Shown: piece by piece, positions 46,715 to 63,974 of the stretch
How the letters are laid out: each line of letters starts with the position of its first letter
Numbering within the stretch: the first letter of the stretch is position 1
From: Marine group II euryarchaeote REDSEA-S11_B3N4
Lineage (GTDB): Archaea; Thermoplasmatota; Poseidoniia; Poseidoniales; Thalassarchaeaceae
Reading direction: 5' to 3'
DNA: 64,000 nucleotides
Assembly (NCBI GenBank): GCA_001628485.1
Contig: LURR01000012.1
Location: 82,563-146,562 of the forward strand
Made by a program: the position numbers and the translations under genes
The notes under the pieces: generated by a model
Told to the model about the DNA's origin: nothing
Seen by the model: only the letters and a program-made list of their open reading frames with translations
Databases searched by the model: none

Positions 46715-47323
46715 CTAGTGCTCGACGGAACAACTGGGACCTCGAAACAACTCGGGAACTCCGTTGAAGTGACCTATGTTGGTTTGGTCACTCTCCCATG
46801 AAGTGTTCATCCAGTCCACGCCAACTCCTCCTCTGTGGGGGGACCCGTCCCTAATCCCAATACGAGTGATACTGTATTCAAGACAGTCCGCGGCAATTGA
46901 GACCATGGCCTCAATCTCATCCGATGACAACCAGCCATCACCTCCAGAGGGCACAATCCCCTCTAGGAATGAATCTAGATCGGATCTGATGTCATCGGCT
47001 AGGGACCAGTTAATCCATGCTCTGGCATCCACTTCAGCAGTCTGCCAGTCATCGTTCACACGAACCTCGAAAATTGCTTGATTGTAAATGAAAATATCCT
47101 CGAACGTTATCGAGCCACATTGCTCTTCCAGAGATCCCCCTCCGCCGAACTGTTCCATTTTTGTTTTGTCATTGGAGAGATGTTCGAAAGGGAGATGCGT
47201 CGAGGAAATGAACATCGCAATACACGCGAAAATCAATCCTGCAGACCTAAACGCCTTGCCGTCCACAGTCATCATCCGGAAACCATAGGACATCAGGGTT
47301 GGCATTAAAAATTGGCTTCTCAA
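46715..47323 (-). pseudogene. Surface protein, N-terminal part of the same probable frameshifted gene
   Basis: Signal/TM-like N-terminus LIFACIAMFISS; ORF ends shortly after sequence overlaps the downstream frame. Confidence 0.55.
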
Positions 47324-48501
47324 CCAATCTGGACAATTTCTCCTGTCCAGTGGAGTGAAAGAAGCTCACCGTCCAAGCCCTGGCCAAATCCGACAATCAT
47401 CCCGCCGCTTGAGCCGATGTAATTCTGAGACCATTGGCCGCTCTCTTCCTTCAGAATCCAGATAGAACCACTGCAAAAGTCACCGTAAAGATATCCGCCT
47501 CTGAGCTCTTCAGGACCCCAGTCCATCCAGAATCCACCAGTTATGGAGCAGTTCCCTCCCGTATGGGCGTAAGTTGCAACTGGCATTGTGTATCCCAAAT
47601 CGTTGCTGTAATTTTCATTGGATGATTCACAGGGAGCACTGTCGTCGACTGGTTGGAAACCCTCCATCTCTGCCCATCCGAGGTTCGCCTGATTGTCCAT
47701 GGTTACCAGATTAATCTCTTCCCAGCAGCTCTGGCCCACATCTGCAATCCAGAGTCTGTCGTTGCTGTCCAAATCAAATCTCCATGGATTCCTCAATCCG
47801 TAATGCAATACGAAGGGACTCCCTGAATCTCCTTGTAGGATAGGACTAACCTCTCCTCCAGAGAAGGTGAAGTAGAGGATAGAACCCAGTACAGTATGCG
47901 GGTCCTGTCCATTTCCATCGGGGTCATAACCGCTTCCACCGTCTCCTAAACCCCAAAGATACTCGTTATTCCCTATGTTGAGAAGATGGCCTCCGTTATG
48001 ATTTCTGAACGGTTGTTCCACGGTCTTCAGAACGGTGATGCTGGACATGTCAATTGTTCCATCAGAATTAACGGTGGCAGAGGAGAGCAACAGATCTGAA
48101 TCGTTCGGCCCATCGCAACTTCCCTCCTCGATGTAAGATAGAAGTACGGTCTGGCTGCCATTGGAGGTATCCGCGAATGCCATGCCCAGTAGTCCCTGTT
48201 CTACATGGCAGTTGCTGACAATTGGGCTAAGGTCTGCCACTTGCGAAACTACTTCTCCATTCCATGAGGTGATTTGACCAGACAACTCTACTATCCATAG
48301 CTCCTCATTTTCTGGATGCTCTAGTGTGACTATTGGGCTAGCAAGACCTCCAAGATAGACAGAGCAGGATAAATTGTAACTTAGATCAATGGAGCAATCC
48401 CAACTCTCTGGCTCTGGCCAAACGTACCCATTATCATCCGAAAGACATCCAGCAAATGGGCAAGTTACCACTAGTAGCGAGATTATCGCCCAAATTCTCA
48501 T
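47320..48501 (-). CDS. PQQ-dependent glucose/sorbosone dehydrogenase-like lipoprotein
   Basis: Lipobox CPFAGC; EQGLLGMAFAD, NHNGGHLLNIG, GLRNPWRFDLD, WIADVGQSCWEEINLV. Confidence 0.85.
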   Translation of the reverse strand: MRIWAIISLLVVTCPFAGCLSDDNGYVWPEPESWDCSIDLSYNLSCSVYLGGLASPIVTLEHPENEELWIVELSGQITSWNGEVVSQVADLSPIVSNCHVEQGLLGMAFADTSNGSQTVLLSYIEEGSCDGPNDSDLLLSSATVNSDGTIDMSSITVLKTVEQPFRNHNGGHLLNIGNNEYLWGLGDGGSGYDPDGNGQDPHTVLGSILYFTFSGGEVSPILQGDSGSPFVLHYGLRNPWRFDLDSNDRLWIADVGQSCWEEINLVTMDNQANLGWAEMEGFQPVDDSAPCESSNENYSNDLGYTMPVATYAHTGGNCSITGGFWMDWGPEELRGGYLYGDFCSGSIWILKEESGQWSQNYIGSSGGMIVGFGQGLDGELLSLHWTGEIVQIG

Positions 48502-48510
48502 CTCTAGTCC

Positions 48511-49587
48511 CTACCTTTCTAGATAGGCTTGGATACCGGGTACATTTGAAACTGCTTCTGAGTAAGTTCCCAGATGCTCTTCCCCAGTGCTAGCTACCAT
48601 TCCAGCCGTGTTGAGGACGTCGTTCAGGATTTCACGCCCCTCGCTATCGTCATCAAGTGCTAGCAGAGCCTCTTGAATTACCAGCATAGTCTCGTCGTCC
48701 ATACTTGCTGGGTCATACATTACCGGGTGACTGGGTGCCTGTCCAAAAGAGGGTAGCATGACAATCTCATCACGCTCCAAGCACCAGTCTGGACCATCGG
48801 CCACACCATCCTCATTCTCATCGCAATATAGCCGATATGCCGTGTCCTTCACTAGAGCCACGTCTCCGTGCCCAGTCATCATGCACTTCATTGCCCCGCT
48901 GTATCCGGAGTATTGTGTGCCACCCTCAGGGATTTCAGAGTCCGCATGGAAGAAAGTCGTCACAGTGGCTCTCAACGATTCGATCTCGTTTGGATCGCCT
49001 TGCACTTCTGCGTATCCGTTTCCAATCAGGTAACCCATGGGAATGAGCATCCCAGCGCTCTTCAACCAGCCAGTATGGCATGACTTCTTTCCTTGCATAA
49101 GTGCAAATGGATCGGTATCGGGGTCGTCATCCAGGTGTGCTGCTGCAATCTCTGAATCAGCTCTAACCCATGCTGCTGCGTTGTAGAATACCCTTCCGTC
49201 AGGCTTCTTCTCAACGGCTACTACATCCAGATCGTAAACCTGGTAACCCAACCATCCTGCAGCCCCGTCCACCATGGCGATCTCAGCATTTCCATTGGCG
49301 ACGGCCTCTATCGCGGCAACCTCGTCCGATACGGGATAGACCACTACCTTCATCCCTGTCAGTTCGCTTAACTTGTCTGCCATCTCCTGGGGATTCGCTT
49401 CCCAGAAAAGGTATGTATCCTTGACTTCGTAAGCTATTCTTACGCAGTCCTCGTCATCTCCGCATTCGTCATAGTTCACCGTGAACAATGCCCACAAAAC
49501 TGCAGCCGAGAGAATAATTCCGGCTATTGCAATTGGCACAGTCCTGCCCTGTGAAGCATCCCTAATGCTATTCGCAATCGTGCTCAT
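48511..49587 (-). CDS. Transferrin-like periplasmic/exported substrate-binding protein of an ABC importer (PhnD-like annotation expected)
   Basis: N-terminal TM anchor; [76 protein letters not shown]; divergent to ABC ATPase/permease. Confidence 0.78.
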   Translation of the reverse strand: [358 protein letters not shown]

Positions 49588-49617: not shown

Positions 49618-49633
49618 TTTAGGGCTACCTAAA
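49618..49633. promoter_or_regulatory. Palindromic operator TTTAGG-GCTA-CCTAAA in the divergent promoter of the transferrin-like/ABC genes
   Basis: Perfect 6-bp inverted half-sites with 4-bp spacer; on the minus strand it abuts TATA-like AAATTTATC; same architecture at 53704. Confidence 0.72.
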
Positions 49634-49634
49634 C

Positions 49635-50351
49635 ATGACTAAACATGAAAAGAGGAATCACGTCCCCAAGCACGTGTCAGAGGTAGTTAGGATTAGGAAC
49701 CTAGAAGTTGGTTTTCAAAAACAACCTCTACTCTCCATAGAAAGTCTGATTGTAAATTCCGGCGAGGTACTGGCAATTACAGGACCGTCCGGAATAGGAA
49801 AGACCTCGTTACTCAAAACGATCGCAGGCCTTCTGACACCACTATCCGGATTAGTTCAGGTTTGCGAGGCTACATCTCCGCAGAAGCCACCGAGAGGTAC
49901 GATTGGATATATCCCTCAGAAGCTGGGACTGGTCAGGCACTCGAGCGTTTGGGCCAATGTAATGCTAGGCTCTAGAGCAGGGAACACAAAATCACACTCT
50001 AGAGAACAGTCAAACAATGCAATTCTGGCAATGGGGTTGGAAGAAAAAAGAAATGAACCAATCAAAAGGCTCTCCGGGGGGCAACAGAGGCGAGTTGCGA
50101 TAGCCAGGACTCTGGCACAGCGTCCCAAGCTAATATTGGCAGATGAATTTCTGAGCGAACTAGATGAAGAAACATCTGATAGAGTGGTAGAGGCAGTGAT
50201 GCAATACGTCTCATCAAGCGGCGCTGCAATGGTTCTGGTTGAACACGACATCTCTAGAGCGCGGGAGATCTCTGATAGACTTCTAGTCATAGACGATGGA
50301 CGTCTGAACCCCTTCATCACAGATACTTCGATCATGGAGGTGAGATCTTGA
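49635..50351 (+). CDS. ABC transporter ATP-binding protein (PhnC-like)
   Basis: Walker A GPSGIGKTS, LSGGQQRRVAIARTLAQRPKLILADE, VEHD switch. Confidence 0.93.
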   Translation: MTKHEKRNHVPKHVSEVVRIRNLEVGFQKQPLLSIESLIVNSGEVLAITGPSGIGKTSLLKTIAGLLTPLSGLVQVCEATSPQKPPRGTIGYIPQKLGLVRHSSVWANVMLGSRAGNTKSHSREQSNNAILAMGLEEKRNEPIKRLSGGQQRRVAIARTLAQRPKLILADEFLSELDEETSDRVVEAVMQYVSSSGAAMVLVEHDISRAREISDRLLVIDDGRLNPFITDTSIMEVRS

Positions 50352-51274
50352 TCAGGATCAATAGAGAACTGAGGGAGCTGCTAGTTTCAGTTACCGTCCT
50401 GATTCTTGGATTCTGGATAATCCTCACTCTCACGTCAGGTCTTGTCTGGGACTGGAATGGATGGAGGGTTATCGAACCCCAGTCTTATCCTCCGTGCGAG
50501 GCAAACATGTTCCTTCAGTTCACATGCTCCACTGCTTGGATTGGGATGGTTGAAACGATAAAGATAGCAATTCTTGCAACCTTCTTCGGGATGATACTCT
50601 CTCTACCGATGGGACTCTTGAGTTCAAGGAATCTATTCCCCCAGTACGTTACCTATCCTTCTAGGGCCGTTGTCTCAGCCTGTCGAAGCCTTCCAAGTCT
50701 GATTTGGGCGATTATCTTCGTGATAATTGTCGGATTGGGGCCAACAGCAGGAATATTAGCAATGACGATCTACACAGTCGGATATCTGGGCAAGATGCAG
50801 TATGAGGCGATAGAGGGGATGAACAGCGCACCTCTGGAGGCTGCCAACGCAATGGGGCTCACGAAGGCAGAAGTATCATTCTGGGTCGTTATCCCAGAAA
50901 CTGCAAACCACCTAATAGCTCAGATGATTTTCATGTTTGAATACAATGTCAGGTCAGGGACCGTTATTGGGATAGTCGGAGCCGGTGGAATTGGGTACTA
51001 CATCAATCTCTATCTGAAGTTCCTACAATACGAAAGAGTTGCAGCGTATCTGCTAATCATATTCCTGGTGGTTTTGCTTATCGATTTAGTCTCCATCTAC
51101 CTTCGCTCATTCTTCACAGACGAGTCCGAGAATACCAAGCCAACCTGGTCAGGCGTGTTCCTCCCCCCGAAAGATGATCCACCAGAAGTAGTCAATATTC
51201 GAGACCGGATTGATCCGGTCACCGGCGTCAAGATGGGCGAGGATAATCAGGCTAGTAATCCGCAACAATCCTGA
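50348..51274 (+). CDS. ABC transporter permease (PhnE-like)
   Basis: Multi-TM; MQYEAIEGMNSAPLEAANAMGLTKAEVSFWVVIPETANHL; overlaps ATPase stop. Confidence 0.9.
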   Translation: MIRINRELRELLVSVTVLILGFWIILTLTSGLVWDWNGWRVIEPQSYPPCEANMFLQFTCSTAWIGMVETIKIAILATFFGMILSLPMGLLSSRNLFPQYVTYPSRAVVSACRSLPSLIWAIIFVIIVGLGPTAGILAMTIYTVGYLGKMQYEAIEGMNSAPLEAANAMGLTKAEVSFWVVIPETANHLIAQMIFMFEYNVRSGTVIGIVGAGGIGYYINLYLKFLQYERVAAYLLIIFLVVLLIDLVSIYLRSFFTDESENTKPTWSGVFLPPKDDPPEVVNIRDRIDPVTGVKMGEDNQASNPQQS

Positions 51275-51593: not shown

Positions 51594-53690
51594 GTGCCTA
51601 GAAGCGAAAACGCTCTTCGAACTATACTCTGTGTGCTAATGTTGCTGCTCGTATTAGTTTCCGGTTGCCTGGACAACACTTCGAACGAAACAGATACAGA
51701 AGCAGTTGATCAAGAGAATGAGAGAGATGAAATCCCCCTTTCAGTCGCTTTCATCGTGGATCAGCAGTTTTTCGGAACAGAAAATGATCCTTCCTACATG
51801 GCACAGAAATTCTCAGAAGAGACAATATTCGAAATTACCCCATATCCCGTAGAATCCGAAGAAGCGATGATTGAGTCACTCAGGTTTGGCCATGTTGACC
51901 TTGCAATGATGGATGCAGCATCATCCTGGATGAGTTGGAAGAATTACGGATTAGAAGCACTTCTCGCCGACGAAGAGAATTATGGAAGAACATACTACAA
52001 TTCCAATGCATGGGTCAAATCAGACAGCGATATCGCAACTTACCAAATCGATGATGATCCGTTGACAGATCCATTTTCACTCTTCGAGGGTAAGAAAACC
52101 TGTCACACGGGATGGTTTGACTCCGTGGGGATGCTTCTTCCTATGGGGTTCTTGCTCGGTCTTGGATACGCAAATGTAGCTGGAAACCCAAACGACGTGG
52201 AGTCATTGTTGTTCACAATTCAGGAGTTCTTTGACGACGAACCAACTATTCCTGAGGCCGGTACAAAGTACTACGGCTACTCAGGAGCTCTTAGGTGCCT
52301 CTCAGACGGAACAGGCGACATAGCATTTCTCCAGGACTCCTCAGTGGAGGATTACTGTCCAGATGACGACTCGATAAGGCCCTCGTGGTGTCTCGAGGAG
52401 GATGAATACACCATGCTCCCCACATTCGGCAGGTCCCCCAGTAACGCCCTGATGTATAATCCAAGTTTTCTTGACTCGGAAGTTTCAGAAAGAATTTCCA
52501 AAGAACTGGTCGATCTGAGTGGAATAAATGAAATGGACCAGACCCTAAGCTCACTATTCGGAACCCCCGGTTTCGTCCCCACCACATCCCAACAGCACTT
52601 GGAGGGATACTCATCCTTAGTCTATAACATCCCAGGAATGCAGGCATATTTCGAGGATCCAAGTAATACTGGACAGGTAAATCTCAGTGTACAAGAAATC
52701 AATATCGGCGTAGTAGGACCTCTTTCAAACTCTACATCCTCATCTTTCGGATTCCTTGCCGACTCAATAAGCAACGATATCGGCATAGGCGTGAATATTT
52801 CCGAATTTGAAAATCACTTCAGTCTAGTAGAAAATTTATCCAATGGAGTCGTAAATATCGCAATTACAGATGCGATTCCCTCTTGGAAGGCATGGAAGCA
52901 CGATGGAATGTCCGTATTGGCATCATTGTTGGATGAACAAGAGAAGGTCTTCTCGGACTCATTCACCATAGTGAGATCCGATAGCGAATTTACAAATTCC
53001 ACCGATCCTCTTTCTTTGATGGATGGAATTTCTCCCTGCTTCTCGGGAAGAGACAATCCAAGTACACTATTGGTTGCAGGAAGCTTGGTCGGAAGGGGCC
53101 TAACAACCCATCTAGGAGATTTGCAAAATTCTTCAATCCCTGAGATTATCCATTCACTATTCAATTCATCTTACTCTTTCCCAGAAGAAAACTCAGAATT
53201 CCACGGTACCAATGGGGCCCTTAGATGCCTTTCTCATGGAGGGGGGGATATTGCGTTTGTAGAAGGCAATGAACAGGAGATATTCTGTCAGGATGGCTCA
53301 CAACCAAGTGATGAAAATTGGTGCTTAGATAGCGCAGATTATTCCTTGCTTCCACCCATAGGTTCTCTGCCGTATAAATCTGTAATTTACGATCCTTCAG
53401 TCTTGGACATGGTTTCTCGCACAGCTGTCCTAAACTCCTTGCTATCTCTGAACTACGAAATGTTCCTGGACAATTTCACAACTATGGGAAGGGAGTATAC
53501 CGGATGCTATGATATTTCGATCCATAAAATCGACGAGGACTCCCCTAGGGAAGCCTGTGGTTCTGAGATTCTTTCCAATTCACTCTATTCTTCTGGAGTA
53601 TCCAGGGCAACCTCTCAAAGCCTTCTAGGACAAATCTCCGAAATAATCGGCATCCTCCCTGTTCAGCTGATTAACAACTCCTTCACATAA
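51594..53690 (+). CDS. Bilobed transferrin-like lipoprotein (two tandem substrate-binding lobes)
   Basis: GTG start; lipobox LVSGC; lobe 1 FEGKKTCHTGWFDSVGMLLPMG and KYYGYSGALRCLSDGTGDIAFLQD; lobe 2 degenerate counterpart SPCFSGRDNPSTLLVAG and EFHGTNGALRCLSHGGGDIAFVEG. Confidence 0.78.
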   Translation: MPRSENALRTILCVLMLLLVLVSGCLDNTSNETDTEAVDQENERDEIPLSVAFIVDQQFFGTENDPSYMAQKFSEETIFEITPYPVESEEAMIESLRFGHVDLAMMDAASSWMSWKNYGLEALLADEENYGRTYYNSNAWVKSDSDIATYQIDDDPLTDPFSLFEGKKTCHTGWFDSVGMLLPMGFLLGLGYANVAGNPNDVESLLFTIQEFFDDEPTIPEAGTKYYGYSGALRCLSDGTGDIAFLQDSSVEDYCPDDDSIRPSWCLEEDEYTMLPTFGRSPSNALMYNPSFLDSEVSERISKELVDLSGINEMDQTLSSLFGTPGFVPTTSQQHLEGYSSLVYNIPGMQAYFEDPSNTGQVNLSVQEINIGVVGPLSNSTSSSFGFLADSISNDIGIGVNISEFENHFSLVENLSNGVVNIAITDAIPSWKAWKHDGMSVLASLLDEQEKVFSDSFTIVRSDSEFTNSTDPLSLMDGISPCFSGRDNPSTLLVAGSLVGRGLTTHLGDLQNSSIPEIIHSLFNSSYSFPEENSEFHGTNGALRCLSHGGGDIAFVEGNEQEIFCQDGSQPSDENWCLDSADYSLLPPIGSLPYKSVIYDPSVLDMVSRTAVLNSLLSLNYEMFLDNFTTMGREYTGCYDISIHKIDEDSPREACGSEILSNSLYSSGVSRATSQSLLGQISEIIGILPVQLINNSFT

Positions 53691-53703: not shown

Positions 53704-53719
53704 TTTAGGGTAACCTAAA
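53704..53719. promoter_or_regulatory. Palindromic operator TTTAGG-GTAA-CCTAAA upstream of flavodoxin
   Basis: Same half-sites and 4-bp spacing as 49618-49633; abuts TATA-like AAATTATAA. Confidence 0.72.
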
Positions 53720-53771
53720 AATTATAAGATACACTTCTAGACGATATTGGGACACTCCAGTAGATGGATAC

Positions 53772-53836
53772 GTTGGCGGGGGGAAGCATCACCCCCAGCA
53801 TCATTTTCGGTTTCCGTAAACCGTCCCCCCGTCAAC
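53772..53836 (+). ncRNA. Candidate structured 5' leader of the flavodoxin mRNA
   Basis: 12-bp helix GTTGGCGGGGGG (53772-53783) / CCCCCCGTCAAC (53825-53836, one G-U) enclosing hairpin CGGTTT-CCGT-AAACCG (53808-53823). Confidence 0.5.
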
Positions 53837-53907
53837 AACTTAAGTTTGTAAGTGAGGAAAATCTGGAGGATACAGTTCCGAGACGAACTCTGACTAGGAG
53901 AGGGGCA

Positions 53908-54363
53908 ATGACCGATCGAAACTTACTCCTGATATTCGGTACCGAGACAGGAAATGCCGAAGAACTCGCAGAAGACGCAGCTCACATGGCGAAAAAATAC
54001 GATCTTAATCCAACAGTAATAGACATGGAGGACATCACGCCAGAAGGAATCTCCGATTCCAAGAGGCTGATTGTAATTTGTAGCACATGGGGGGAAGGTG
54101 AACAACCCGTAAATGCCCAAGACCTGTATGATGCTGTCTCAGAATCAGAAGATGGCTGCATGATTGGAGTAAATTTCGCAGTCCTCGCACTAGGAGACAC
54201 TGCATTCGAATTCTTCTGCGAATCAGGAAAGGAATGGGACTCTGTACTGGAAGAGAAAGGTGGAAAAAGAACCAACAAAAGAATAGATTGCGACACAGAT
54301 TACGACGATTATGCAGAGGAATGGATCGAGGAAACACTCTCATTGATGAAAGACATCGCATAG
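53908..54363 (+). CDS. Flavodoxin-family protein
   Basis: LLLIFGTETGNAEELAEDAAHMAKK, STWGEGEQPVNAQDLYDAV, VLALGDTAFEFFCESGKEWDSVLEEKG; start at ATG 53908 after AGGAG. Confidence 0.9.
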   Translation: MTDRNLLLIFGTETGNAEELAEDAAHMAKKYDLNPTVIDMEDITPEGISDSKRLIVICSTWGEGEQPVNAQDLYDAVSESEDGCMIGVNFAVLALGDTAFEFFCESGKEWDSVLEEKGGKRTNKRIDCDTDYDDYAEEWIEETLSLMKDIA

Positions 54364-57524: not shown

Positions 57525-60500
57525 TCACTGAATTCTTATCCTTCTTGAGCGGATGTTGGCCATCCCCCTCTTCTTCCAACCAGCGGCTCGGTAGGCGATA
57601 ACTCCAATGAAAGCTACCGAAACAGCCAGAATTGCCCAGGTTTCGCCACTGAAGGGCCTGAATGGGTCTTTGGACCACTTCTCATCGCCTAGAACCCCAT
57701 CCTCCAAATCTGGAATTCCATCACCATCATCGTCATCGTCTTCGACATCGGATATCCCGTCGCCATCAAAGTCCAGAGAGTCGCCCCCTCCTTCGAATGC
57801 GCCATCCTCAGTTTCCTCTACGCCGTCTTCGATTATCTCATCTCCGATAAGGGTCTGAATCGGACAACCGAGGTCATTTCCGGGCAAGGCAAGAGTCTGC
57901 ATGAAGTCCGCATCTTGCGAGCTGATACCGAACTCGTATGGGCACTCATCGGCATTGTTCCCAACGCTATCGCCGTCGGTATCCAACCACTCACTAGGGT
58001 CATCGGGGAAGGCGTCCAAGTTGCTCCCTTGGTCAGCGAAGCCATCTCCATCTGAGTCGGACCACTTATCGGCTTCTAGTGGGAAGGCATCCGTTCCATT
58101 TTCTCCGCTCCCTTGTCTGTTGCATGGCACCGGATTGAGCCAGCCATCTCCGTCGCAATCAGTGTCCTGGTTGTTTCCGATGCTGTCGCCGTCTGTGTCA
58201 TCGGTCTCATTCGCATCCAGTGGGAACTCGTCCCCTTTCGCAGAAGTGAGGCAATCTGGAGCACCATCGCCATCTAGGTCAGGCCCCCTATTGCTCACCA
58301 ATGCGCCATATTGATCTGTGATGTGGTAAGTGGTATCGTCGCACCTTCCGTCATTGTCGTCGTCAGGGTCTACGTTGTTCCCCCAACCGTCACCGTCTGC
58401 GTCAGCCCACTCGTTGGGATCGTTCGGGAAAACGTCGAACGAGTCCGGCCTCCCATCGCCGTCATCGTCATCGTCCGAGTTGTCTCCAACTCCGTCTCCA
58501 TCGAAGTCCTCCCACTCGTTCTGGTCATTTGGGAATGGATCTTCGGTGTCGTTCACTCCGTCGTTGTCGTCATCGGTGTCGATGCTGTCTGGGATCCTAT
58601 CCCCATCCGAGTCGAAGGATACTTCGGGGTCAAGGGGGTCGTAGTCATTCACATCCGGGACTCCATCGTTGTCGTCGTCCTCATCTATCTGATCGGGAAC
58701 CCCATCACCATCGAAGTCTGCGAAGCAGTCATCGAAGAATGTGGAGGCCTCGCTAAGCGTAGATTGCCCAGCTGGGCACTGCGTCTGCGATGTGGCCTGA
58801 TTCTCTGAAACATAGAACCCCCTAGCAGCTGGAACGCATGCACGTTGCCCCTTCAGACTTGAGTAGTATCCCGGTGAGCATCCAGTCTGCTCCGTCTGGC
58901 CCGAATCGGGAACCATGAAACCCCTTGATGCTAGAATACAGGTAGTCTTCTCAGGCAGTGGCTGGTATGTCCCCCTCTCGCAAGGGACTTGGTCTTTGGA
59001 ACCGTGCCCGAGATCGATATCCTGCGGGGTGTTGGAATTAGTGGATCCACCATCGCCAACCTGTCCGTATTCATTCGCCCCCCAGCATTTCAGGCTGGCA
59101 TCGTCCAAAATCATACAGGTGTGCCTGTGGCCGACTGTGATCGAGGTTGCATTGGTGCTCAGGATGATGACCTCCGGGGTTGAATGTGCAGTCTGGGTAC
59201 CGTCACCGAGTTGCCCGTAGCTGTTATCTCCCCAGCAGGCGACTTCACCTGAATCGAATAGACCGCAACTGTGGAAGAGGCCAACCTCTACTTCCATCAG
59301 AAGTAGGTCCGGACTCAATGCTGAAGCGAGAGGGCTATTAGAGTCCAAAGTCCCTCCATTGCCCAGTTGTCCATGGGCGTTGTAACCCCAACAGAACATC
59401 GTACCATCATTCATCCCTAGGCAGGTGTGGAAAGCACCCGAGTCAATCGATACAGCGCTGCTGTTGCTCGGGATAGAAACCTCAACTGGTGTGTCCCTAT
59501 CGACATTGCTGGAGTCTCCGAGTTGCCCGTTCCAATTCTCCCCCCAGCACATCACATTTCGGTCTACAGTTATCGCACATGTGTGGAACGATCCCGCGGA
59601 GACCCTCAGTGCACCCGTCCCTCCCAGTGAGGAATATGCCGGAATATGCCGGTCAGTCGTCGTCCCGTCACCTATCTGTCCGTTAGCATTCAGGCCCCAA
59701 CACTTCACTCTGTTGTCAGTAAGTACTGCACAAGTGTGCGACTCTCCAGATGAAACCCCGATTGCTGATACTCCAGAGCCGAGGTCAACGGTAATCGGGG
59801 TCGTTCTTTCGATGGTCGTACCGTCACCTAGCTGCCCGAATGAGTTTGAACCCCAGCAACGAACCGACCCATCATCAAGCAGGGTACAGGTATGGTATGA
59901 TCCCGCAGAAATCTCAATCGCATTCCTTCCCATCGGCATTGAGGCCTTTTGTGGTTCTAGGCTTGAGTCTCTTGTCCCGTCACCTAGCTGCCCGTTGTCA
60001 TTCATCCCCCAGCAGCTAACCGAGCCGTCATCCAGTATGGCACATGAGTGGTAAGCACCCGAAGACACCTTTGTCAGAACTGGGACGCTATGACCGGCTT
60101 CTGCCCACTGACAAGCCAGATCCGAGGTCATTCCGTACTGGTTGTTGTACTTGCCAGCTGGGCAGGGAGTGCCTTCGGAAGCTCCGAGCCCGGGGACGTA
60201 GTAGCCTGGCCTGGCCTCTTCGCAGGTGGTTTGCCCTGAAAGCTCCTGGAACTTTCCAATTGGACATTGAGTTTCTGAGGTCGCCCCGTTGACGTCTACG
60301 TAGTGTCCAGGGCTGGCGGGAGTCATCACTGTACTTCCACTCCCACTGACGTAGTATCCAGGAGTGGCCTCTCTACAGGAAAATCTGCCATAATTTCCGG
60401 GACTACAATTTGCAGCAACCGTGGGGTTGCTGTCATCGCTATCCGATCCAGATGGAAAACCATCGTTATCATCGTCATTGCTGACTCCCACTTCGAAAAT

Positions 60501-63500
60501 ATTCAGGTCTCCATTGTTGTTCCAATCTCTCTCCGAAGAACCAATGTAAGTCCATCTGGAAATGCCGGAGAACTCTGATGGTGCGTTCCCGAGAGACTCC
60601 TCGGACCCAACTCCCCCCCAGCATTTCGGAAGGTCGTTACTAGCGACCACGCAAGTATACGATTCTCCAGAGGTTACAGAGACGGCTCCAAGATTTTGAC
60701 CGAGTGCAATCTCAGTCGGCGAAGTAATCTGGGTCGAGGTACTTCCATCGCCAACTTGCCCCTTCCCGCTTCCTCCCCAGCAATGTAGGGAATCGCTGGA
60801 ACTCACTATACAGGTGTGTCTTCTTCCTACGTCGATACTGATTGCACCAGATACCGAGGCCGCAACGATAGACGCGTCGTTCTGCTGGTTGGCAGTTCCG
60901 TCACCTAGCTGCCCGAATGCATTGTCGCCCCAGCATTTCACATCCCCACTGCCCGATCCATCAAGGATGACGCAGGTATGGGCCCCACCGGCAGATACTG
61001 CGACGACACTCCCTCCGAGAGTGACAGTTGAGGGTGAGTTGGATGGCGTCGTCGTCCCAGTCCCCAATTGCCCGTTTTGATTCGCCCCCCAGCACTTCAG
61101 TGACCAACTGTCCGAAATCGCGCATGTATGATTCGAGCCTGCAGATACTGCGAGGAACTTCTCTCCAGGGAGGTTCACGGATACTGGAGCGCTGCTATCC
61201 GAATTTGTGCCATCTCCCAGTTGACCATGGGTATTTCTGCCCCAGCACTTCAGACTCGCATCGTCTAGAATTGCACAGGTATGCCAATCTCCTGAAGACA
61301 ATTGAACCGGCACTCCTCCTATGCTCGCCTCCACAGGAGAGTTGGAGTGTGAATTCGTTCCATCACCTAGTTGACCGAAGTTATTTCTCCCCCAGCACTG
61401 GATTTCTCCGTTATCAAGTACTGCACATGTGTGGTCCTGGCCGGAGCTAATCGAAACTGCTGTTCTTGCCGAGTCCAAACCAACCGATGTCAGAACCTGC
61501 CTGTCAGCAGTGGTCCCGTCACCTAGCTGCCCGAATGTGTTGTCACCCCAGCATTGGAGGTCAGAGTCATCTAGTATGGCGCAAATATGGGCTCCTCCAC
61601 TGGAGATCGTTGTCTCGGTGAATATAGAACCAGATTGGAATCCAGGAGAGTTGAATCCGTCGGAAACCGGGCTCCTCATGTCTGTTATTACCCCGTCGCT
61701 GGATGCCAAGTAATACTTCTGGGGGCCCGTTGGTACGTTTTCTCCGGTCACAATGATTTCCCAATCCCCAACCTCCGGATTACCTTCTACCGAGATTCCA
61801 ACTAGGTTGTTCAAATCGTCATTCGTGTAGGTCTCAATTGTCCCACTGGGACTCTTAAGGAGGATGTCCAGGTCATTGACCAACTGCTTTCCTGCGCTGG
61901 GGCCGTTCGCTGGGTCATTCCATGAGAGAACGACTCTGAAATCCTCTATACCCGTGTCCGGAACGGTGAGTTTGAATGAATGGCTATCGGATGTGGATAT
62001 CTCGATCCCTTCAGTGAACCCGGAATGGACCAGCTGTTCTAGATCGGCCCTCCCCCATCCTTCATGGCTGTTGGGCGCCTTCTCCTCGGCTCCATTCCCA
62101 TTCGGATCTCCTCCCGTTGTGTATTGTCCTCCTAAGTCGTGGGCCCCGGAAGCGAGTATCGCCTTAATCAGGGCAGATTCTGGACAATGATTGCTGGAAG
62201 GGTTACTTGCTAGGTCGCAGTTGTAGGCCCCTATGTTATTCAAATGCTCAATCACCAATGCAGCCGAACCTGCCACGATAGGGGTCGCCATCGAGGTCCC
62301 TCTTTTGTGAGTGTAGAACCCACCGGGGTCGTCTGTCATCGTATTCGAGGACGCCAATTCTGACCTAGTTGAGAGAATCCAACCTCCCGGTGCCACAATA
62401 TCCGGCTTGATTCGCCCGTCATTCGTAGGTCCCCTATTGGAAAACGCACTCATTCCCTCTGGGTCGTCATTAGGCGTGTCCATCCTGATGGGGTCGGTGC
62501 CATGCCTCTCATTGGAATACGGGAGTGGGCAACCACCAACATTGCAAAGATTGCTGTATGGAATATCGTATAATGATAAACCCACACGATAGTTCTCCGA
62601 TGATCCTACGGACAAGATATTCTTCGCAGTTGCCTGTCGATTCATGGCACCCTTGTTTATCTCACCATCTTTCCCCCCGTAGCAGTTTGGCTGGTTGTAG
62701 GAGTTGTAGGTGCAGTCCATGGCATCGTTCCCCATGGCGAAAAGGATCGTCAGGTCAGTCAGTGAATTAGCTTCGGCATCAATCTCATACGATGCGGAGC
62801 TATAGTATGCCAGACAGCTACCGCTTGAGGAGCCAGACTGGGCGCAATTAGTGCTCGTGCTCGGGCCAGAGCCCCAAGAATTCGTGTGGACTCTTGCACC
62901 CTCATCGTAAGCCTCTGTGAAGAAGGCATTGTATGAGGGCTGACAAAGCGAACTGCCGTTACATGTGCCACCTACCGCCAGAACCGCCTGCATGAAGAGG
63001 TGGGCACCTGGGGCCATCCCGCTGTTGTCTGTTCCTGTAGGTGAGTTCGTACCATCTCCCAAGACAGACCCTATCACGTGGGTCCCATGGCCATTAGGAT
63101 CCTGCGGACCATCCGTACAGGTGTTACAAGTGTACGATTTGACTCCGACTATTCTGCCAACGAAGTCTGCATGGATGCCGCTGTTCACGGAGTTGCAATG
63201 GGACAGGCTAAAGCACTCTACTGCAGTATCTAGTCCAGAGTCCATTACCCCAACTATTACCCCAGAACCCGTCAGAGCACCACCGAAAGGCGCCATATTA
63301 GTAGACTCCCCCACCCAATCAACGCCGATGATTTCAGCTGCCGCTTCGTTATCAAGATGAACTGGATACTTGGGCTCGACCCATTCTACGAAATCAAGAT
63401 TTATCAGTCCGGCCAAACCCTTCTCATCTACTACGACTTCGGCTACCCTGTCTATTCTGTAGTCAATTAATTCGACTCCAGTTTGGATAAGATTTTCTAT

Positions 63501-63974
63501 TTCATTAGAACCGCTCAGTACGACGTTTATTACGTACCTGTCCCCTTGCATTATAGCGCCACTGTCCATCCCTTCTACCAATGGAATCACGTCAGGGGCC
63601 AGCTTGTCCGCCGAGTCAAGTCGGAAAGCACCCATGACTCCGATATCGTATAGCTCCATTGGGGCTATCTTCGGCACCTTACAATGGAATCCCTGCGGCG
63701 AATAGAATGTCCTGCATTCCAAACCCAGATCCGTCAGTTGAGATTTCCAATCAGAGGGTATGGGATAATCGTGCCCCAAAACGAACCAACCAGACAGGTA
63801 CTCCTCACCAGTTGTTTCCTCCCACTTCTCAATCGGTACAAAGGTAGCGGTCCTATAGAATAGCGAAGCTTCTCCGATATTTGCAGAGTCCCCCTTCCAC
63901 CCATGTGAGGGATCATCAGACTCCGTTTCTCCTAGGGAGTATTGGTCGTCTAGAACGTAATCTATCGCGTTCAT
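57525..63974 (-). CDS. Giant secreted subtilisin (S8) with RCC1-like repeats, Cys-rich GCC2/GCC3-like repeats, TSP3-like Asp-rich repeats and C-terminal TM; N-terminus probably continues past the window edge
   Basis: Catalytic IVGVMDSGLD, GHGTHVIGSVLGDG, GTSMATPIVAGSAAL; repeated SAGxxHTCAILDDxSxxCWGxNxxGQLGDGT; ARPGYYVPGLGASEGTPCPAGKYNN; no signal peptide at 63974 and frame open to 64000. Confidence 0.88.
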   Translation of the reverse strand: MNAIDYVLDDQYSLGETESDDPSHGWKGDSANIGEASLFYRTATFVPIEKWEETTGEEYLSGWFVLGHDYPIPSDWKSQLTDLGLECRTFYSPQGFHCKVPKIAPMELYDIGVMGAFRLDSADKLAPDVIPLVEGMDSGAIMQGDRYVINVVLSGSNEIENLIQTGVELIDYRIDRVAEVVVDEKGLAGLINLDFVEWVEPKYPVHLDNEAAAEIIGVDWVGESTNMAPFGGALTGSGVIVGVMDSGLDTAVECFSLSHCNSVNSGIHADFVGRIVGVKSYTCNTCTDGPQDPNGHGTHVIGSVLGDGTNSPTGTDNSGMAPGAHLFMQAVLAVGGTCNGSSLCQPSYNAFFTEAYDEGARVHTNSWGSGPSTSTNCAQSGSSSGSCLAYYSSASYEIDAEANSLTDLTILFAMGNDAMDCTYNSYNQPNCYGGKDGEINKGAMNRQATAKNILSVGSSENYRVGLSLYDIPYSNLCNVGGCPLPYSNERHGTDPIRMDTPNDDPEGMSAFSNRGPTNDGRIKPDIVAPGGWILSTRSELASSNTMTDDPGGFYTHKRGTSMATPIVAGSAALVIEHLNNIGAYNCDLASNPSSNHCPESALIKAILASGAHDLGGQYTTGGDPNGNGAEEKAPNSHEGWGRADLEQLVHSGFTEGIEISTSDSHSFKLTVPDTGIEDFRVVLSWNDPANGPSAGKQLVNDLDILLKSPSGTIETYTNDDLNNLVGISVEGNPEVGDWEIIVTGENVPTGPQKYYLASSDGVITDMRSPVSDGFNSPGFQSGSIFTETTISSGGAHICAILDDSDLQCWGDNTFGQLGDGTTADRQVLTSVGLDSARTAVSISSGQDHTCAVLDNGEIQCWGRNNFGQLGDGTNSHSNSPVEASIGGVPVQLSSGDWHTCAILDDASLKCWGRNTHGQLGDGTNSDSSAPVSVNLPGEKFLAVSAGSNHTCAISDSWSLKCWGANQNGQLGTGTTTPSNSPSTVTLGGSVVAVSAGGAHTCVILDGSGSGDVKCWGDNAFGQLGDGTANQQNDASIVAASVSGAISIDVGRRHTCIVSSSDSLHCWGGSGKGQVGDGSTSTQITSPTEIALGQNLGAVSVTSGESYTCVVASNDLPKCWGGVGSEESLGNAPSEFSGISRWTYIGSSERDWNNNGDLNIFEVGVSNDDDNDGFPSGSDSDDSNPTVAANCSPGNYGRFSCREATPGYYVSGSGSTVMTPASPGHYVDVNGATSETQCPIGKFQELSGQTTCEEARPGYYVPGLGASEGTPCPAGKYNNQYGMTSDLACQWAEAGHSVPVLTKVSSGAYHSCAILDDGSVSCWGMNDNGQLGDGTRDSSLEPQKASMPMGRNAIEISAGSYHTCTLLDDGSVRCWGSNSFGQLGDGTTIERTTPITVDLGSGVSAIGVSSGESHTCAVLTDNRVKCWGLNANGQIGDGTTTDRHIPAYSSLGGTGALRVSAGSFHTCAITVDRNVMCWGENWNGQLGDSSNVDRDTPVEVSIPSNSSAVSIDSGAFHTCLGMNDGTMFCWGYNAHGQLGNGGTLDSNSPLASALSPDLLLMEVEVGLFHSCGLFDSGEVACWGDNSYGQLGDGTQTAHSTPEVIILSTNATSITVGHRHTCMILDDASLKCWGANEYGQVGDGGSTNSNTPQDIDLGHGSKDQVPCERGTYQPLPEKTTCILASRGFMVPDSGQTEQTGCSPGYYSSLKGQRACVPAARGFYVSENQATSQTQCPAGQSTLSEASTFFDDCFADFDGDGVPDQIDEDDDNDGVPDVNDYDPLDPEVSFDSDGDRIPDSIDTDDDNDGVNDTEDPFPNDQNEWEDFDGDGVGDNSDDDDDGDGRPDSFDVFPNDPNEWADADGDGWGNNVDPDDDNDGRCDDTTYHITDQYGALVSNRGPDLDGDGAPDCLTSAKGDEFPLDANETDDTDGDSIGNNQDTDCDGDGWLNPVPCNRQGSGENGTDAFPLEADKWSDSDGDGFADQGSNLDAFPDDPSEWLDTDGDSVGNNADECPYEFGISSQDADFMQTLALPGNDLGCPIQTLIGDEIIEDGVEETEDGAFEGGGDSLDFDGDGISDVEDDDDDGDGIPDLEDGVLGDEKWSKDPFRPFSGETWAILAVSVAFIGVIAYRAAGWKKRGMANIRSRRIRIQ

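Follow-up and report, generated by a model that had tools for sequence, protein, structure and literature searches.

A two-lobed transferrin-family lipoprotein with decayed metal sites beside an ABC importer in a marine archaeon

The window analysed here, a stretch of 64,000 nucleotides from a genome of the archaeal order Poseidoniales, carries the genes of an ABC importer flanked on both sides by transferrin-family genes. On the minus strand lie a gene for a glucose/sorbosone-dehydrogenase-family lipoprotein (47320..48501; PF07995 and synteny) and one for a one-lobe transferrin-family protein (48511..49587; Pfam and alignment), hereafter the 48511 protein, whose site D107/Y135/T172/K176/Y229/H287 is complete and which is likely the substrate-binding protein of the importer. 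The importer operon is divergent from it and consists of plus-strand genes for an ABC transporter ATPase (49635..50351; PF00005, kept beside transferrin-family genes) and a PhnE-type ABC permease (50348..51274), the latter assigned by synteny and by TIGR01097 with 216.8 bits against a cut-off of 216.7. Positioned 3′ of the permease gene is the subject of this work, a two-lobed transferrin-family lipoprotein, or pseudo-transferrin (51594..53690, plus strand), characterized by its open reading frame, Pfam and PDB searches, an AF2 model and Foldseek.

The open reading frame starts with GTG and encodes 698 residues, with a lipobox LVSGC ending at Cys25. It comprises an N-lobe (residues 47-362; 51732..52679, plus strand) and a C-lobe (residues 363-698; 52680..53687, plus strand), which align with each other at 31% identity (123 bits, E=4e-37); the 48511 protein aligns with lobe 1 at 44% identity (295 bits) and with lobe 2 at 26% identity (119 bits, E=2e-35), so that the bilobality and homology of the lobes proposed in the initial annotation of this DNA are borne out. 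All residues named there are likewise in place, namely D107, Y135, C170, T172, D176, Y229, C235 and N284 in lobe 1 and D426, C482, C545, C565, C577, GTNGA and LPYKS in lobe 2. The second metal site had been called degenerate, in agreement with the C-lobe site string DSSDTK, in which substitutions have removed both Tyr as well as Thr, Lys and His, leaving only the Asp (D426) of six residues along with the four cysteines. The description of the first site as near-intact stands only in part: D107, Y135, T172 and Y229 are kept in the N-lobe, but two of the six residues are changed (site string DYTDYN), with D176 at the Lys/Arg anion position and N284 at the His position, and the wording is too generous because both substitutions occur in 5/5 members of the genus clade. 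Thus the ferric Asp/Tyr/Tyr/His set is complete in neither lobe, and the synergistic carbonate site of Thr and Arg is incomplete too, Thr172 being kept while the Arg position, occupied by Lys in intact relatives, holds Asp176. Lacking a complete ferric site in either lobe, the protein is therefore a transferrin homologue by sequence and fold, a pseudo-transferrin, and not a functional transferrin.

Assignment to the family follows from several lines of search. Pfam Transferrin PF00405 matches the 698-aa protein with 64.2 bits (cut-off 20.3) and its relatives with up to 146 bits, and gave no match with a PhnD-like homologue taken as control from a bacterial operon of this type. Pfam Phosphonate-bd PF12974 scores slightly higher, 69.8 bits against a cut-off of 27, while the curated PhnD models TIGR01098 and TIGR03431 remain below their cut-offs (58 vs 112 and 44 vs 261). 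Neither the SBP_bac families (FbpA-type ferric binding; E<=1 in Pfam) nor PF07692 (FEA1/phytotransferrin) matched the protein, the PF07692 match belonging to a neighbouring gene of its relatives. Single-sequence phmmer against the PDB placed melanotransferrin and lactoferrins on top (E=3e-21), the top matches being transferrins only, and a profile of 28 archaeal lobes reached lactoferrin with E=5e-45 across both lobes, all 60 of the 60 PDB matches listed being transferrins or relatives such as carbonic-anhydrase inhibitor. An AF2 model built from a 54-sequence alignment (pLDDT 82.2, pTM 0.77; a single-sequence model with pLDDT 33 was discarded) had transferrins as all of its best 50 Foldseek matches in the PDB (best E=9.5e-29), with global TM scores of merely 0.3-0.4, so that the placement of domains or lobes differs or is unreliable. 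The 698-aa protein is a transferrin-family homologue in sequence and predicted fold. Eukaryotic transferrins (PF00405; melanotransferrin 6xr0, lactoferrin 1blf, ovotransferrin) likewise have two homologous lobes of ~330 residues with the same fold, share the motifs KxCHTG..SAG.L.PMG and GYSGA.(K/R)C(L).G.GD(V/I)AF, and possess the Asp, Tyr, Tyr, His and Thr also kept by relatives of the 698-aa protein; melanotransferrin and carbonic-anhydrase inhibitor have each lost the site of a lobe, as it has. Unlike them, it is a prokaryotic lipoprotein adjoining an ABC importer, with its sites decayed, and the anion position, Arg in animal transferrins, is Lys in intact archaeal relatives.

A survey of the order, proposed in the initial annotation, was carried out and found PF00405 matches, in both one- and two-lobe proteins, in 253 of 319 Poseidoniales genomes and in 0 of 14 control genomes. 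Outside the order, matches occur in the same class and in three other families of the phylum, the spread beyond Thermoplasmatota being known from plasmids only. A plasmid of Natronococcus occultus (L109, 5833-6857) carries an unannotated, frameshifted one-lobe homologue between genes for a DtxR-type regulator and ABC-PhnE. The four ferric ligands together with Thr and Lys are nearly invariant across the archaeal family: the D/Y/T/K/Y/H site is complete in 51/58 one-lobe proteins and, among 35 two-lobe proteins, in 27 N-lobes and 19 C-lobes, a further 9 C-lobes having Glu for Asp as the sole site difference. Complete two-lobed transferrin homologues are therefore ordinary in this order, and since intact two-lobe relatives are so common, the 698-aa protein is to be regarded as a decayed descendant and not as an early stage.

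The surrounding genes form a conserved operon, TF-ABC ATPase-PhnE-type permease, where a one- or two-lobe gene occupies the same slot and gpsA mostly stands next, on the opposite strand; a second, one-lobe paralogue type, to which the 48511 protein belongs, is paired with a glucose/sorbosone-dehydrogenase gene. DtxR-type (iron-dependent) repressor genes were found adjacent to the operon in several places: in three related genomes (f3), whose repressors combine Fe_dep_repress, Fe_dep_repr_C and FeoA domains, in one genome of another order (G435) and in the haloarchaeon Natronococcus. Genus g4 has an intact two-lobe gene located between FEA1 and Peripla_BP_2-FecCD-ABC genes. At two loci of this genus (L140, L141), FEA1, the intact two-lobe homologue and a carboxypeptidase-regulatory-domain protein are encoded in a row, with Peripla_BP_2-FecCD-ABC added in L141.

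Relatives of the window genome mostly have a gene for a FEA1-related “low-iron-inducible” lipoprotein adjoining the decayed two-lobe gene, recognized by PF07692 with up to 91 bits and by NF038033 with 375 bits against a cut-off of 250. The FEA1/ISIP2a phytotransferrin family (PF07692, NF038033) is an algal iron-starvation family, the phytotransferrins having been grouped with FEA proteins (PMC7972479), and is separate from that of the 698-aa protein, to which its archaeal members stand as neighbours. Comparison of the window with the locus of its nearest relative (L005; protein 96% identical) revealed that 1.26 kb with the FEA1 gene is missing: the junction falls at 53738|53739, and a 25-nt scar (53739..53763, plus strand) corresponds, by comparison with relatives, to the 3′ end of the lost gene. 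PF07692 has no match anywhere in the window genome, which is 92% complete. Directly after the scar begins the open reading frame of a flavodoxin (53764..54363, plus strand; PF00258), which appears 48 residues longer than its homologues because an upstream ATG sits just behind the scar; homologues begin near 53908, which is probably the true start.

Two palindromes of the form TTTAGGNNNNCCTAAA, which resemble DtxR/IdeR operators, were detected, one (TTTAGGGCTACCTAAA, 49618..49633) in the interval that separates the one-lobe gene from the ABC operon and the other (TTTAGGGTAACCTAAA, 53704..53719) at the position that lies upstream of the FEA1 gene in relatives. They are the only two TTAGGNNNNCCTAA sites of the genome; since a reversed control pattern is found there equally often, two times, it is the position and conservation of the sites that carry the argument. 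The loci compared, 1.36 Mb in total, contain 192 such sites against 1.3 expected from composition, although the sites are not independent because related genomes are over-represented; 187 of them are situated no more than 300 bp from one of these genes or from a divergent neighbour, and the palindrome is present at 80/118 transferrin-family genes and at 28/30 FEA1 genes. These observations suggest a putative operator of an iron regulator. The DtxR C-domain PF02742 was not found in the window genome, and a 97-aa open reading frame (G000:C7:14451-14672), matching the DtxR N-terminal DNA-binding domain only, is a candidate regulator. Elsewhere (L107, 11106) the palindrome was seen upstream of a gene that encodes an M28 peptidase and a ZIP metal transporter as one fused protein. 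The intact one-lobe paralogue, the ABC importer, the FEA1 lipoprotein of relatives and the DtxR-like palindrome together agree with the iron-type setting assumed in the initial annotation, and the cargo would be Fe(III).

Two other identities of the cargo have to be weighed. Import of phosphonate, phosphite or another oxyanion by the whole system, with the transferrin likeness reflecting shared PhnD ancestry only, would accord with features held in common with the phosphate-phosphite-phosphonate binding proteins (PF12974, TIGR01098), that is, the PF12974 score above its cut-off and slightly above that of PF00405, and the PhnE-type permease and ATPase as partners. We consider this highly improbable, given the missed cut-offs of the curated PhnD models, the near invariance of the four ferric ligands with Thr and Lys, the presence of metal-regulator, FEA1 and FecCD genes nearby, and, unlike in PhnD, the transferrin CHTG and metal-ligand motifs and two lobes per chain. 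Bacterial counterparts exist: on plasmids of Roseovarius (L110), Dysgonomonadaceae (L158) and Roseibium (L160) we noticed the cassette mntR - large ORF (cytochrome c peroxidase) - PhnD-like - ABC - PhnE, which is annotated as phosphonate uptake and probably serves a metal. Its PhnD-like proteins (Roseovarius WP_057796571.1 and others) share the operon type with the archaeal family and keep the Tyr/Tyr/PSH-His positions; unlike that family, they have one lobe and lack the CHTG motif, the Asp ligand and a PF00405 match. The linkage to mntR in these cassettes, where a cytochrome c peroxidase or hypothetical gene stands second, makes manganese, or iron and manganese together, conceivable as the cargo of the archaeal system also, yet this appears unlikely: the Roseovarius protein is without the Asp and the CHTG motif, the combination of Tyr/Tyr/His/Asp, Thr and Lys is that of ferric transferrins, and iron is indicated by the FEA1 and FecCD genes near the archaeal loci.

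Decayed two-lobe copies were encountered in 27 genomes, with the C-lobe site lost and the N-lobe usually altered too, and those sampled constitute one clade (SH-aLRT 100 for C-lobes and 82 for N-lobes); G214 and G222 represent stepwise intermediates, having a complete N-site and no C-site. Another intact transferrin homologue is present in 26/27 genomes with a decayed copy and in 1/11 with an intact two-lobe gene (Fisher p=2e-7), and FEA1 in 23/27 and 2/11, respectively, although these counts are not independent events since the decayed copies form one clade. One genome with both an intact two-lobe and an intact one-lobe gene (G211) was dismissed as a counterexample, being probably a binning error, as the contig with its second gene (L144, G211:C32) is short and bears DtxR and transferrin genes resembling those of the f3 family. 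Within the genus of the window, dN/dS amounts to 0.04-0.10 for the N-lobe, 0.06-0.21 for the C-lobe and 0.02-0.05 for the one-lobe protein. Because many deeper pairs are saturated at synonymous sites, the values from near pairs are safer, namely 0.08-0.10 (N) and 0.20 (C). Both lobes are under purifying selection, though it is slack. Against this background we hold it to be improbable that the protein is a functionless relic awaiting loss. Such a fate would suit the loss of both sites, the absence of the two-lobe protein from a near relative (G318) and the splitting or interruption of two decayed copies (G176, G304), but reading frames are open in the large majority of decayed copies, dN/dS is far below 1 in both lobes, and the cysteines, the lipobox and the predicted fold are kept.

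What appears probable instead, though well short of certain, is that the 698-aa protein is an accessory pseudo-transferrin of a ferric-iron ABC importer, descended from an intact two-lobed binding protein. The ancestor would have served the TF-ABC-PhnE importer as a two-lobed substrate-binding protein with both sites intact, a state that many Poseidoniales retain; a single clade would then have lost the metal site of the C-lobe first and altered the N-lobe afterwards, while the 48511-type one-lobe homologue kept its full site and may have become the protein that supplies this importer with ferric iron. The two-lobe protein would then be maintained by selection as a non-chelating or weakly chelating accessory subunit of the surface, most likely holding or passing ferric cargo between surface binders, such as the FEA1-related lipoprotein of relatives, and the one-lobe protein or the permease. 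Gene context is consistent with such an accessory or hand-off role. Surface iron capture, suggested for the protein in the initial annotation, is weakened because neither lobe holds a full ferric site, and would better fit the 48511 protein and those two-lobe relatives whose sites are intact. Several observations count against the accessory role in iron import: FEA1, the proposed partner, is gone from the window genome with the two-lobe gene retained, that genome gave no match to the DtxR C-domain, the co-occurrence reflects in essence the history of one clade, the palindrome is no commoner in the whole genome than its reversed control, and the PF12974 score exceeds that of PF00405, if slightly.

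The N-lobe deserves separate attention, as it might bind a metal or other cargo (a ferric chelate, a trivalent metal other than iron or a small organic ligand, for instance) via a re-tuned site of Asp, Tyr, Tyr and Asn with Asp at the anion position, the protein having then changed its specificity and not become a scaffold. Saxiphilin and the inhibitor of carbonic anhydrase, members of the transferrin family in eukaryotes that have lost iron sites and do other work, offer a precedent, the latter being among the phmmer PDB matches; D, Y, T and Y are kept, the K-to-D and H-to-N changes are fixed throughout the five genus-clade members, and N-lobe dN/dS is lower than that of the C-lobe. Sister lineages, however, vary at these positions (THFD, TKFD, TNHN, TELD, with Tyr229 itself lost), so that no single new N-lobe site is conserved, and we give a re-tuned site perhaps one chance against several.

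The initial annotation left open whether the parallel with eukaryotic transferrins reflects convergent duplication or the origin of the family. In the lobe phylogeny, the N- and C-lobes of eukaryotes form a group of their own (98) that contains no archaeal lobe, and AU tests rejected the grouping of eukaryotic N with archaeal N (p=0.0026) or C with C (p=1.07e-6). A duplication shared with animal transferrins is thereby rejected and the convergent alternative upheld: the archaeal two-lobe form is a duplication separate from the eukaryotic one, with eukaryotic sampling thin because the rows are fragments, single lobes of three vertebrate proteins taken from PDB alignments. Archaeal and eukaryotic transferrins are joined with SH-aLRT 100, but the AU test does not reject the alternative of archaea with mntR-linked bacterial proteins (p=0.27), and branches are long; a closer affinity of eukaryotic transferrins to the archaeal proteins than that of the mntR-linked bacterial proteins is favoured, though not firmly. 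Transferrins are generally regarded as eukaryotic proteins. The literature searched, which has few subscription-journal papers, yielded no paper on archaeal transferrins. Descent of transferrins from phosphonate-binding proteins is itself not a new idea: PMC7676907 credits McQuaid et al. 2018 with tracing ISIP2a and transferrin to phosphonate-binding periplasmic proteins, and that study may already include archaeal sequences.

With intact ferric ligands and still in the service of ABC importers, the archaeal branch would provide living intermediates between solute-binding proteins and transferrins, and it would show that the two-lobe form evolved twice; it would also point to a candidate system of iron uptake in a group that ranks among the most abundant archaea of the surface ocean, and the pseudo-transferrin clade offers a natural experiment on the use of a transferrin lobe after metal-site loss. 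A broader picture, to which we would grant slightly less than an even chance, is that marine archaea may run an iron economy from transferrin and FEA1, two families thought typical of eukaryotes, with an ABC importer, a metal-responsive palindrome and an independent origin of the two-lobe form, the copy of one clade having become a non-chelating accessory that works with the FEA1 lipoprotein and the one-lobe transferrin. Further along the window, at 57525-63974, a 2149-aa protein has the look of a subtilase that carries two sorts of repeat, CWG..G.LGDG units resembling RCC1 and D-rich units of calcium type.
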